Of a stretch of DNA of 64,000 bases, positions 25,820 to 31,804 are shown piece after piece. The DNA is taken from positions 62,001 to 126,000 of the forward strand of contig NZ_SDVA01000003.1 of NCBI RefSeq assembly GCF_004153545.1, read 5' to 3'. This DNA comes from Serinicoccus sediminis (GTDB taxonomy: Bacteria; Actinomycetota; Actinomycetes; Actinomycetales; Dermatophilaceae). Each line of letters starts with the position of its first letter. Positions within the stretch are counted from its first letter, which is position 1. The translations under genes were made by a program, and so were the position numbers. The notes beneath the pieces are model-generated. The model was not told where the DNA came from and ran no database searches. It saw nothing but the letters and a program-made list of their open reading frames with translations.

Positions 25820-27484
25820 TCAGGCGTCGGGGCTGCCGAGCGCGGCGTCGACGACCTGCTGGGCCTCGGCCTGGACCTGGGCGAGGTGCTCGGGCCCGCG
25901 GAAGCTCTCGGCGTAGATCTTGTAGACGTCCTCGGTGCCCGAGGGACGGGCCGCGAACCACGCGTCCTCGGTGCAGACCTTGACCCCGCCGACGGCTGCA
26001 CCGTTGCCGGGTGCCTCGGTCAGGATGGCGGTGATGGGCTGGCCGGCGATCTCGGTGGCCGAGATGTCGTCGGCCGACAGCTTCTTCAGCCGCGCCTTCT
26101 GCTCCCGGCCGGCCGGCGCGTCCACGCGGGCGTAGGCCGGCGCCCGGCCGCCACCGATCTCCTCGACGAGCTCGGCATACCGCTGCGAGGGCGAACGCCC
26201 GGTGCGCGCGATGATCTCCGCCGCCAGCAGCGCCAGGATGATGCCGTCCTTGTCCGTCGACCACACCGAGCCGTCCCGGCACAGGAACGACGCCCCGGCC
26301 GACTCCTCGCCACCGAAGGCGATCGAGCCGTCCAGCAGCCCGGGCACGAACCACTTGAAGCCGACCGGCACCTCGGTGAGCTCGCGGCCCAGCCCCTCGG
26401 CGACCTTGTCGATCATCGAGGAGCTGACGAGGGTCTTGCCGATCGCGGTGCCCTGCGGCCAGTCCGGCCGCGCCCCGCCGTAGAGGTAGTCGATGGCGAC
26501 CGCGAGGTAGTGGTTGGGGTTGAGCAGGCCGCCGTCGGGGGTGACGACCCCGTGCCGGTCGGCGTCCGCGTCGTTGCCGGTCGCGACGTCGTAGTCGGCG
26601 TCCCCGCTCATCACCTCGATGAGCGAGGCCATGGCGTCGGCCGACGAGCAGTCCATGCGGATCTTGCCGTCCCAGTCCAGCGTCATGAACGACCAGGCCG
26701 GGTCCACCCTCGGGTTGACCACGGTGAGGGCGAGGCCGTGGGCCTCGCCGATCGCCCGCCAGTAGTCGACCGACGCCCCGCCGAGCGGGTCGGCGCCGAT
26801 GCGCACGCCGGCCTCGCGGATGGCGTCGACGTCGATGACGCGGGGCAGCGCCCGGACGTACTCGCCCATGAAGTCGTAGCGACCGGCCGCCGCGACCGCG
26901 TCCTCCACCGGCACCCGGCGCACGCCGTCCAGGCCGGCGCGCAGCAGCGCGTTGGCGCGGTCGGCGATCCAGCCGGTGGCGTCGGTGTCGGCCGGGCCGC
27001 CGTGCGGCGGGTTGTACTTGAACCCGCCGTCGCGGGGCGGGTTGTGCGAGGGCGTCACGACGATGCCGTCCGCCTCGCCGACCGCGCCCTCGGTCTCCCG
27101 GTTGTGCGCGAGGATGGCCCGCGACACCGCCGGGGTCGGGGTGTAGCCGTCGCCCTCGTCGACGCGGACGTCGACCCCGTTGGCCACGAGCACCTCGAGC
27201 GCGCTGCGCCAGGCCGGCTCGGACAGCGCGTGCGTGTCCCGCCCGAGGAAGAGCGGGCCGTCGGTGCCCTGCTCGGCGCGGTAGTCGCAGATCGCCTGCG
27301 TCGTCGCCAGGATGTGGTGCTCGTTGAAGGCGCCGTCCAGCGAGCTGCCGCGGTGCCCGGAGGTCCCGAAGGCGACCTGCTGGTCGAGGTCGTCCGGGTC
27401 CGGCACGACCTGGGTGTATGCCGTGACCAGCGCCTCGACGTCGGTCAGGTCCTCCTCCTGGGCGGGCTGCCCGGCGCGGGGGTG
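25820..27484 (-). other. Phosphoglucomutase module of the fusion
   Basis: Residues 1441-1994, beginning at [19 protein letters not shown], which resembles the normal N-terminus of actinobacterial Pgm minus its Met. The phosphoserine loop is VTPSHNPP (Ser1586), the metal loop is [10 protein letters not shown] (1743-1752), the sugar loop is GGEESAG (1831-1837) and the phosphate loop is ARPSGTED. All four alpha-phosphohexomutase motifs are intact. Confidence 0.95.
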
Positions 27485-30400: not shown

Positions 30401-31804
30401 CGCGGCGCCCGGGAGGTCGGCCGGCACCGTGCCGCCACCCAGGAGGCGGTGCACGGCGGCCAGCGGGATCGGGAGCCAGTCGGGGCGGTTGCGGGCCTCG
30501 TAGCTGACCTCGTAGAGCGCCTTGTCCAGCTCCAGGGCGGCCAGCACCGCAGCGGACCCGGCCTCGGAGCGCGGGTCGGCGCCGGCCTCGGTGGCGTAGC
30601 CCTCGAGGAAGGCCTCGCGAGCGGCCGCGGCCCACCCGTCACGGTCGTCCGCGGCGGCCGCCGCGGCGTAGTCGAAGGAGCGCAGCATGCCCGCGACGTC
30701 GCGCAGCGCGAGGTCGGGCTCGGTCCGCTCCGCCAGCGGACGCAGCGGCTCGCCCTCGAAGTCGAGCAGGACCCAGCCGCGGCCGGGGGCGTCGAGGACC
30801 TGCCCGAGGTGGTAGTCGCCGTGCACCCGCTGCAGCTCGGGCAGGGCCGCGGCCTCCAGCCCCGCGTAGACCGCCAGCACGGCGTCGCGGTGCTCGGCCA
30901 GCGCGGGGGCGTCCCGGAAGGCCTGCTCGGCGCGGTCGCGCATCTGGGCGACCAGCTCGGCCCGACGATCGTCGGCCGGACGCCCGCCGAAGGCCTCGCG
31001 CAGCGCCGCGTGCACCGCGGCGGTCGCCGCCCCCAGGGTGCGGGCGCGCTCGCTGAAGTCGTCGTCGGCGTCGGCGGCGACCCGGGCCTGACGCCAGGCG
31101 TCCTCGGTGCCGGTGAGGAACTCCTGGGCGAAGGCCAGGTGGCCGCGCACCTCGCGCCCCGCGTCGGTGGACCAGCGACCCTCGACGTAGCCGAACGGGT
31201 CGGGCACGAGGTGGGTGCCCGAGCCGCTGCGGCTGATGGCGGTCTGCACCGACACGTCCGGGTTCTCGCCCTCGTGCAGCACGCGGAAGAGCTTGATGAT
31301 GAGGGGCCGCCCGCCCCGGTGGGTCTCCACGATGACGGAGGTGTTGGACTGCTCGCCGGACAGGACCCTCGCCGTGGCCAGGGCGGGGCGCTCGCCCTCC
31401 GGGGCGACCCGCCGCGCGCGGGCCGCGGGCACGTCGTGCTCGGAGGCCATCTCCGAGAGCAGGACGTGCGAGAAGACCGGGTCGTGCGCGGCGTCGTAGA
31501 TGTAGCGGGTGCCGAGCTCGGGGTGCTCCGCGGTGGCGACGAGGGCGTGCGCGAGGAAGGGCACCGCCTCGGCGCGGTAGGTGAGCGGGATCTGGTAGAC
31601 GGTCGGCTCCTGCGCGCCGCCCGCCGTCTCGTCGACGACGATGTGGTCCTCGATGCCGACCTCGCCGTAGGGGTCCTCCCAGCGGATGCTGGAGACCCGC
31701 CGCAGCCGTGGCGCCTCGCCGCCGGCCTGCTTGCCGCGGAACCACCGCTGCCGGGCGACCCAGGCAGGCAGGAACTCCTCGAACGTCGGGGTGAGCGGGG
31801 TCAT
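25820..31804 (-). CDS. mak-glgB-pgm: Maltokinase-GlgB-phosphoglucomutase triple fusion
   Basis: One uninterrupted frame of 1994 codons holding three normally separate enzymes: maltokinase (1-456), glycogen branching enzyme (about 690-1415) and phosphoglucomutase (about 1441-1994). The start ATG overlaps the treS stop (ATGA), so translation is coupled to treS. Residues 457-690 are a low-complexity linker with three PADxPGAA-type repeats and an internal Shine-Dalgarno plus ATG at Met530, where a separate GlgB could begin. The GlgB-PGM joint (about 1412-1445, Asp/Gly rich) has no start codon, so PGM must be made as a fusion. All three catalytic sets are intact. The enzyme would take maltose to maltose-1-phosphate, branch the polymer made by GlgE, and link glucose-1- and 6-phosphate. 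A loss of stop codons by sequencing error cannot be excluded from one sequence. Confidence 0.9.
27560..29737 (-). other. GlgB branching-enzyme module of the fusion
   Basis: Residues about 690-1415. GH13_9 alpha-1,4-glucan branching enzyme with N-terminal CBM48 domains ([19 protein letters not shown]). The nucleophile is Asp1089 in [15 protein letters not shown], the acid/base is Glu1142 in [12 protein letters not shown], and the stabiliser is Asp1210 in [13 protein letters not shown]. The C-domain ends at GAVWFVPDP. It looks fully functional. Confidence 0.95.
30215..30230 (-). promoter_or_regulatory. Internal Shine-Dalgarno and ATG for GlgB
   Basis: GGAGGAG (30224-30230) lies 6 nt before an in-frame ATG (30215-30217, Met530 of the fusion). 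This is an optimal start inside the coding frame, probably the ancestral glgB start, and may still yield a 1465-residue GlgB-PGM protein. Confidence 0.65.
30350..30424. repeat. 30-bp tandem repeats in the fusion linker
   Basis: About 2.5 copies of a 30-bp unit (30350-30379, 30380-30409, 30410-30424), encoding the PADVPGAA-type repeats between maltokinase and GlgB. The unit is a multiple of three, so copy-number change would alter linker length without a frameshift. Confidence 0.85.
30437..31804 (-). other. Maltokinase module of the fusion
   Basis: Residues 1-456. ATP-dependent maltose kinase of the aminoglycoside-phosphotransferase-like fold. The N-cap domain has [10 protein letters not shown]. 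The nucleotide region is [14 protein letters not shown], the catalytic loop is [13 protein letters not shown] (Asp330), and metal binding is at [12 protein letters not shown] (Asp348). Length and ends match stand-alone Mak. Confidence 0.93.

Follow-up and report, generated by a model that had tools for sequence, protein, structure and literature searches.

A single reading frame for maltokinase, branching enzyme and phosphoglucomutase in Serinicoccus sediminis, and the apparent repeated fusion of phosphoglucomutase in its genus

Accounts of gene fusion in the GlgE pathway usually centre on TreS-Mak. A 64,000-nucleotide stretch of Serinicoccus sediminis (contig NZ_SDVA01000003.1, positions 62,001 to 126,000 of the forward strand; hereafter the window) contains a frame that appears to join maltokinase (Mak), the branching enzyme GlgB and phosphoglucomutase (PGM), sugar-storage enzymes that as a rule are separate proteins; this raises the question of whether one protein carries all three enzymes and how it might have come about. 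Translation of positions 31804..25820 on the minus strand gives 1994 residues with a single terminal stop. A preliminary description had read this as three complete enzymes in one frame, and that reading holds up, as Pfam and NCBIfam models match the modules and the same frame recurs in 10 relatives. On sequence grounds we recognize a single frame whose three modules are intact and under purifying selection, an absent pgm start, and no second above-cut-off gene for GlgB or for this PGM family. Our interpretation, to which we assign a probability of roughly 0.7, is that the frame specifies a single GlgE-route protein with three enzymes, which would have originated in two steps from a coupled mak-glgB-pgm run, with PGM apparently fused four times, and that tethering and a fixed stoichiometry may result. 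The parts of the gene are listed below in window coordinates; G000 denotes the genome that carries it, and other G-numbers are compared genomes.

25820..31804, minus strand: mak-glgB-pgm, 1994 codons plus stop, about 215 kDa (translation, Pfam, NCBIfam; same frame in 10 related genomes)
30440..31804, minus strand: maltokinase module, residues 1-455 (PF18085; TIGR02457 below cut-off; solved maltokinases)
29735..30439, minus strand: linker 1, residues 456-690 (235 residues), rich in Ala, Pro, Gly and Glu, fast-evolving (composition, identity, and the ratio of nonsynonymous to synonymous substitution rates, dN/dS)
30215..30230, minus strand: internal start-like site, GGAGGAG, six bases, then an in-frame ATG at residue 530 (sequence)
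27569..29734, minus strand: branching enzyme module, residues 691-1412 (TIGR01515, PF22019, PF02922, PF02806)
27485..27568, minus strand: linker 2, residues 1413-1440 (28 residues), without a start codon where unfused relatives begin pgm (sequence comparison, dN/dS)
25823..27484, minus strand: phosphoglucomutase module, residues 1441-1994 (TIGR01132 and four Pfam PGM domains)

Each module can be assigned to its family. The maltokinase module has an N-terminal cap (Mak_N_cap, residues 15-108; PF18085, 83 bits against a cut-off of 22) and a kinase-like body that matches the solved maltokinases 4u94, 5jy7 and 4o7o, which align to residues 14-457, and we classify it as a maltokinase on this basis; the TIGR02457 maltokinase model gives 180 bits, under its cut-off of 375. 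The GlgB module comprises the N-domain (GlgB_N, 695-782), CBM48 (818-894), GH13 and an amylase C-domain reaching residue 1412, aligns with the solved structure 3k1d over residues 696-1412, and belongs to the GlgB family with 883 bits to TIGR01515 (cut-off 464). The PGM module has its four Pfam domains within residues 1478-1980 and belongs to the PGM family with 886 bits to TIGR01132 (cut-off 778). These two modules are the only matches above the TIGR01515 and TIGR01132 cut-offs in the genome. Among the 33 distinct PDB sequences matched at an E-value of 1e-30, every best stretch lies inside one module and none runs across two. The catalytic motifs that the preliminary description reported as intact are present in all 11 fused proteins that we found, as judged with the patterns HGDxHLGQ and DFEGEP for maltokinase and the phosphoserine loop TPSHNPP plus the metal loop for PGM. 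Three activities are predicted on a single chain. The joints, which had been placed at about 30.2 and 27.5 kb, both fall within the linkers (30439-29735 and 27568-27485), and the linkers look disordered, being poor in order-promoting residues and poorly conserved (mean identity of linker 1 across the 11 fused proteins, 0.43).

To see how widely the arrangement is shared, we compared 31 genomes of the genus (taken here to include Ornithinimicrobium laminariae) by a PGM search followed by reading of the loci. The architecture recurs as a one-frame gene in 11 of the 31 (G000, G108, G109, G116, G123, G124, G125, G132, G133, G134 and G135), with proteins of 1991-2072 residues, and four of these assemblies (G108, G124, G125 and G134) are single contigs. 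Another 15 genomes have Mak-GlgB in one frame with a separate pgm behind it; in G114, G127 and G128 the contig ends before mak and GlgB and pgm are separate, and pgm is also separate in G121 (one frame break in GlgB) and G129 (several breaks), so that a separate pgm is kept in 20 of the 31. The break in G121 (L150), a single-contig genome, lies near residue 463 of the GlgB module. In G119 (L152) it is pgm that is broken, by a frame change near residue 134 of its module, the Mak-GlgB frame being intact, and G129 (L151) has a break near the same place in PGM, but many others besides, which are likely errors.

Beyond the genus we read 40 loci from other genera of the family, picked from the PGM match list and including four of the seven longest PGM frames. 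Mak and GlgB share one frame in 16, form separate neighbouring frames in 18, and in the other 6 the stretch holds no mak-glgB or only the edge of glgB; PGM is fused in none of the 40. This match list outside the genus reaches down to 899 bits, and beyond the 40 loci we judged by frame length among the matches listed. Mak-GlgB frames of 1241 and 1223 residues with a separate pgm occur in O. laminariae and Leekyejoonella antrihumi, respectively. Two apparent PGM fusions, G020 and G021 (listed frames of 2140 and 2101 residues), proved to be two genes with stops between them, and of the seven non-genus PGM frames longer than 1200 residues among the matches listed, those of G099, G045, G171 and G084 carry PGM alone with GlgB in another frame, those of G170, G173 and G176 not being among the loci read. 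We also searched two overlapping samples, of the order (396 genomes, 393 with some match) and of the phylum (396 genomes, 303 with some match), with a query balanced across the GlgB-PGM joint. Among the matches listed, which were ranked by score, the joint was spanned in G000 only in either sample, and the other genus member in the order sample, G118, is unfused. As a fused gene is expected to score about twice as high as a split one, a spanning match beyond those listed is unlikely. Similarly, none of 80 stretches of named genomes, out of at least 596 that match, has GlgB and PGM in one frame, many of these stretches holding no pgm. Among the loci and samples searched, the GlgB-PGM fusion is seen in this genus only, and Mak-GlgB appears to be an older, widespread layer to which GlgB-PGM was added as a later one.

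Is the long frame real? Frame length is weak proof of coding here, as the opposite strand is equally open, with 1984 codons without a stop at 25886-31840 on the plus strand, which is probably a by-product of the very high third-position content of guanine and cytosine (G+C). That content is 0.93-1.00 in every 75-codon block of the 1994-codon frame, both linkers included. We consider the sense frame to be coding because of this codon-position bias, the family matches, the low dN/dS of the modules (0.09-0.24) and its conservation in 10 other species of the genus, which together rule out a chance open frame. Frame breaks in the assemblies of some relatives (G121, G129 and G119) could raise the suspicion that a sequencing or assembly error removed a stop or shifted the frame, but the frame is found in 11 separate genomes, four of them single-contig, the linker lengths differ and are always in frame, and the pgm start is missing in all 11. 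For practical purposes, we exclude such an artefact.

The absence of a pgm start is clear at the GlgB-PGM joint of the fused genomes. An in-frame start with a ribosome-site match of at least 4 bases stands at the beginning of pgm in 18 of 20 unfused genomes and in none of the 11 fused ones; the two remaining unfused genomes, G119 and G129, were misregistered in the scoring, and their ATG is visible in the letters. The change is typically from MARHERA in unfused to GGRHPRA in fused genomes. Linker 2 measures 22-44 residues over the fused genomes and is always in frame, a regularity that is partly circular, as these genomes were defined by being fused. In G000, the stretch reaching from 60 codons ahead of the PGM boundary to 40 codons past it holds no start of this kind.

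To gain insight into the number of fusions, we built a tree from all three modules (35 rows including 5 of the outgroup, without G129, under LG+G4 rather than a mixture model), which is a gene tree and not a species tree. It requires 4 changes of the fused state (bootstrap range 4-4, mean of 9.5 for shuffled states), and the fused rows form four groups: G000/G108/G109/G132/G133/G125, G124/G134, G116/G123, and G135. Forcing all 11 fused rows into one clade was rejected (p-AU 6.6e-78), as was forcing together the 8 fused rows, in two groups, of the larger clade (p-AU 4e-81); the corresponding constraint on the 3 fused rows of the smaller clade was rejected only modestly (p-AU 0.024), and both clade-wise groups were chosen after viewing the tree. 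Information on the direction of change comes from the GlgB tails. Unfused members of the crown group have acidic, disordered-like tails of 89-171 residues (seven measured: G106, G113, G117, G118, G119, G127 and G131). In comparisons with 1000 shuffles of both partners, all three pairs of the larger clade (G113, G117, G118) are alike, with 0 of 1000 shuffles reaching the score, as are four of the six pairs of the smaller clade (G106-G127, G119-G127, G119-G131 and G127-G131, also 0 of 1000), and across clades none of 12 pairs falls below 22 of 1000. Because tailed, unfused rows flank each fused group on both sides, a GlgB tail followed by a separate pgm was probably the ancestral state, and the stop, the pgm start and the greater part of the tail probably disappeared in each fused group separately. 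The opposite history, one fusion followed by fissions, would take one gain and five losses against four gains and would demand that similar tails arise anew; we therefore disfavour it.

Some tail may survive within the linkers. Of 77 comparisons between fused linkers and tails, 4 reach at most 10 of 1000 shuffles, where 0.8 are expected at 1 per cent: G123-G131 (0 per 1000, alike from the first residue), G125-G118 (8), G125-G106 (3) and G125-G127 (1). With fewer shuffles, three fused linkers reached z >5 in the scoring of tail likeness. The G123-G131 and G125-G118 pairs fit a tail remnant within the linker, and low-complexity likeness of the size seen across clades for G125-G106 and G125-G127 can arise without descent. 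In G125, linker 2 (L140) runs into the PGM part with TSGGR, an ending similar to that of the G118 tail, which hints at the junction left by the deletion.

Several observations weigh against this interpretation. Parsimony counts cannot tell gain from loss, so the reading as gains rests on the tails, and within the smaller clade the tail of G106 is unlike those of G119 and G131 (372 and 254 of 1000 shuffles, respectively). Several inner forks of the same clade are not starred on the tree (90/82, 94/93, 95/74). Under the same lenient rule for ribosome-site matches, 5 of the 11 fused genomes (G116, G123, G124, G125 and G134) have a matching GTG close to the PGM boundary, either 10 or 23 codons ahead of it or 13-19 codons past it, and rare separate initiation of PGM may occur there; GTG codons passing this rule are also present in unfused genomes. 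G000 encodes sugar-phosphate mutase paralogues, in frames of 565 and 488 residues below the TIGR01132 cut-off, which could supply PGM activity. Lastly, structure prediction for residues 800-1994 (AlphaFold, 11-row alignment) reached a mean predicted local distance difference test score of 32 and carries no information on how the modules pack.

A serious rival, which we rate at somewhat under even odds, is that fusion was near neutral, the loss of a stop between translationally coupled neighbours costing so little that fusions persist without any benefit of tethering. In dN/dS estimates from six genome pairs (G116, G123 and G135 not included), the low values of the modules (Mak 0.15-0.24, GlgB 0.11-0.13, PGM 0.09-0.11) indicate purifying selection on them. 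The linkers evolve far more freely, at 0.38-0.65 for linker 1 and 0.70-1.31 for linker 2, which favours a neutral origin, as do the 20 genus genomes that retain a separate pgm and the tight coupling before fusion, 18 of the 35 family loci that have GlgB in the stretch showing a PGM boundary at most 60 nucleotides from the GlgB stop. All 18 of these equally coupled loci from other genera are unfused, so that coupling alone does not force fusion, and that one genus should have about four fusions argues, if weakly, against neutrality. At the other extreme, it appears improbable that selection welded PGM onto Mak-GlgB four times to form a glucan-bound scaffold with enzyme ratios set by two in-frame starts.

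The older joint, between Mak and GlgB, also seems to keep traces of its origin. In 16 of the 18 family loci with separate mak and glgB, the in-frame start of glgB shares bases with the mak stop, in the form ATGA or GTGA, and letters like GAGGA or AGGAA often lie within the end of mak. The internal site in linker 1 of G000, which reads GGAGGAGACGACC-ATG, resembles these glgB starts. Linker 1 still holds an in-frame start with a ribosome-site match in 13 of 26 genus genomes, where codon shuffles give an expectation of 6.3, and in 9 of the 16 family loci with Mak-GlgB in one frame (1.0 expected), counts that come from related genomes and are not independent. On this evidence we rate at somewhat under even odds that the gene gives two products, the full protein and a GlgB-PGM protein of about 158 kDa begun at residue 530, which would allow more GlgB and PGM than Mak; the idea is tentative, since Glu-Glu in a G+C-rich genome yields GAGGAG unaided, the site is absent in the other 13 genus genomes, and per-genome shuffle chances run up to 0.45. 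The fixed stoichiometry suggested in the preliminary description follows if the chain is translated whole, and use of the residue-530 start could add a second product to it.

Under our preferred two-step origin, the starting point would have been a tightly coupled mak-glgB-pgm run with stops and starts close together or overlapping. The frames would first have been joined at the mak/glgB overlap to give Mak-GlgB, the glgB-type ribosome site and start remaining in about half of the cases. Later, in one genus, most of the disordered GlgB tail, its stop and the pgm start would have been lost, joining PGM via a linker of 22-44 residues, apparently four times. The whole chain would then be translated as one protein, in which the GlgB part, with glucan binding by CBM48, may anchor Mak and PGM to the glucan as it grows, close to GlgE. 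Alternatively, the chain might be made whole and then cut in its linkers into separate enzymes, and the length, composition and poor conservation of the linkers would suit this. We think it improbable, as no shared motif is evident by eye in linker 2 of the 11 proteins except at the end beside PGM, and the sole peptidase among the annotated frames, to which this search was limited, is a prolyl aminopeptidase (21679-22740, other strand, about 3 kb away), an exopeptidase type.

What would a tethered chain gain? Mak makes maltose-1-phosphate, which is used by GlgE, GlgB acts on the polymer, and PGM interconverts glucose 1-phosphate and glucose 6-phosphate, the former feeding ADP-glucose/GlgM and UDP-glucose/trehalose or stemming from glycogen breakdown. 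Channelling, which had been suggested for this protein, is not supported, as no two modules catalyse consecutive steps: GlgE, between Mak and GlgB, is encoded by a separate gene, and PGM is consecutive to neither. We thus reject substrate channelling as the default reading, and direct hand-over between the fused sites is unlikely because their steps are not adjacent. The most likely consequences are that the enzymes come in a fixed ratio and are tethered where the glucan grows, and the gain, if any, would lie in enzyme ratios, a local supply of maltose-1-phosphate and interconversion of the glucose phosphates.

The preliminary description knew of no such protein, and we too recognized no Mak-GlgB-PGM protein in the literature searched; novelty does not extend to the Mak-GlgB half, which is common in the family and apparently corresponds to NF011293 (PRK14705, '1,4-alpha-glucan branching enzyme', 1224 positions). 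No model matches the protein better; the match falls into two stretches, with GlgB aligned to positions 499-1222, and we infer that the first ~500 positions of the model are the Mak part. Despite the same module order, the score of 1360 bits is under the cut-off of 2376 and leaves the protein outside the family, the model being too short for a PGM and linker 1 being long. GlgE clusters have reportedly been surveyed by Chandra and colleagues in 2011. In the literature searched, mostly titles and abstracts, we found no mention of a Mak-GlgB or GlgB-PGM fusion. TreS-Mak (TreS-Pep2) fusions likewise join Mak to a GlgE-pathway neighbour (PMC11046441, PMC4306142, PMC6509496, PMC7935935), but in the present frame Mak is joined to the GlgB that follows it and TreS is a separate, overlapping gene, and the TreS-Mak accounts, in the parts available, do not include PGM. 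The solved TreS:Pep2 complex appears, from part of its report, to rule out channelling there (PMC6509496). GlgB is joined to another glycogen enzyme in the GlgA-GlgB fusion of Waddliaceae and Criblamydiaceae and in MalQ-GlgB of Neisseria suica (PMC7935935, PMC11046441); the partners differ, and the chlamydial GlgB part is described in these excerpts as apparently non-functional, whereas GlgB here is conserved and the only one above cut-off. The glgBCDAP-amy-pgm operon of Lactobacillus acidophilus encodes PGM with glycogen genes, but, in the portion of the account at hand, as a separate gene (PMC4282360). A glgB gene next to mak is also in print, in passages among PMC11046441, PMC4306142, PMC2885305, PMC6509496 and PMC7935935. 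We see here a real, conserved three-enzyme frame that adds to the known fusions of the pathway a three-module chain including a central-metabolism enzyme for which the genome holds no other gene scoring above the family cut-off. What surprises is that PGM was apparently fused repeatedly within one genus. Offering about four fusions next to many sister species in the unfused state, the genus is a natural replicate experiment, in which it can be asked directly whether fusing coupled operon neighbours alters glucan synthesis or is neutral.

The frame closes an operon-like row of GlgE-pathway genes on the same strand, as judged from their order and family matches:

31801..33618, minus strand: treS (maltose/trehalose isomerase), its stop overlapping the mak start (TIGR02456, 885 bits)
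33531..35903, minus strand: open frame containing glgE (maltosyltransferase), the coordinates being those of the open frame (PF11896, PF21702)
35632..37857, minus strand: glgX (debranching enzyme; TIGR02100, 849 bits)

The mak start ATG overlaps the treS stop as ATGA (31804-31801), and the letters upstream of this ATG are AAGGAGGAGCAGCG. The rest of the genome has one glgA/glgM-type gene above cut-off and an OtsA-like gene scoring below cut-off. A 719-residue frame elsewhere (G000:C36:237710-239449) carries CBM48 and gives 237 bits to GlgB, below cut-off. Neighbouring glgB and pgm genes that share 48% and 56% identity with the present modules were found at 6867-10473 of L023, in a record titled as a Helicobacter cetorum MAG (metagenome-assembled genome), a title that looks doubtful. 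Beyond glgX, the window encodes a glycosyltransferase of family 2 that carries a TarS linker domain (39544-41241, plus strand).

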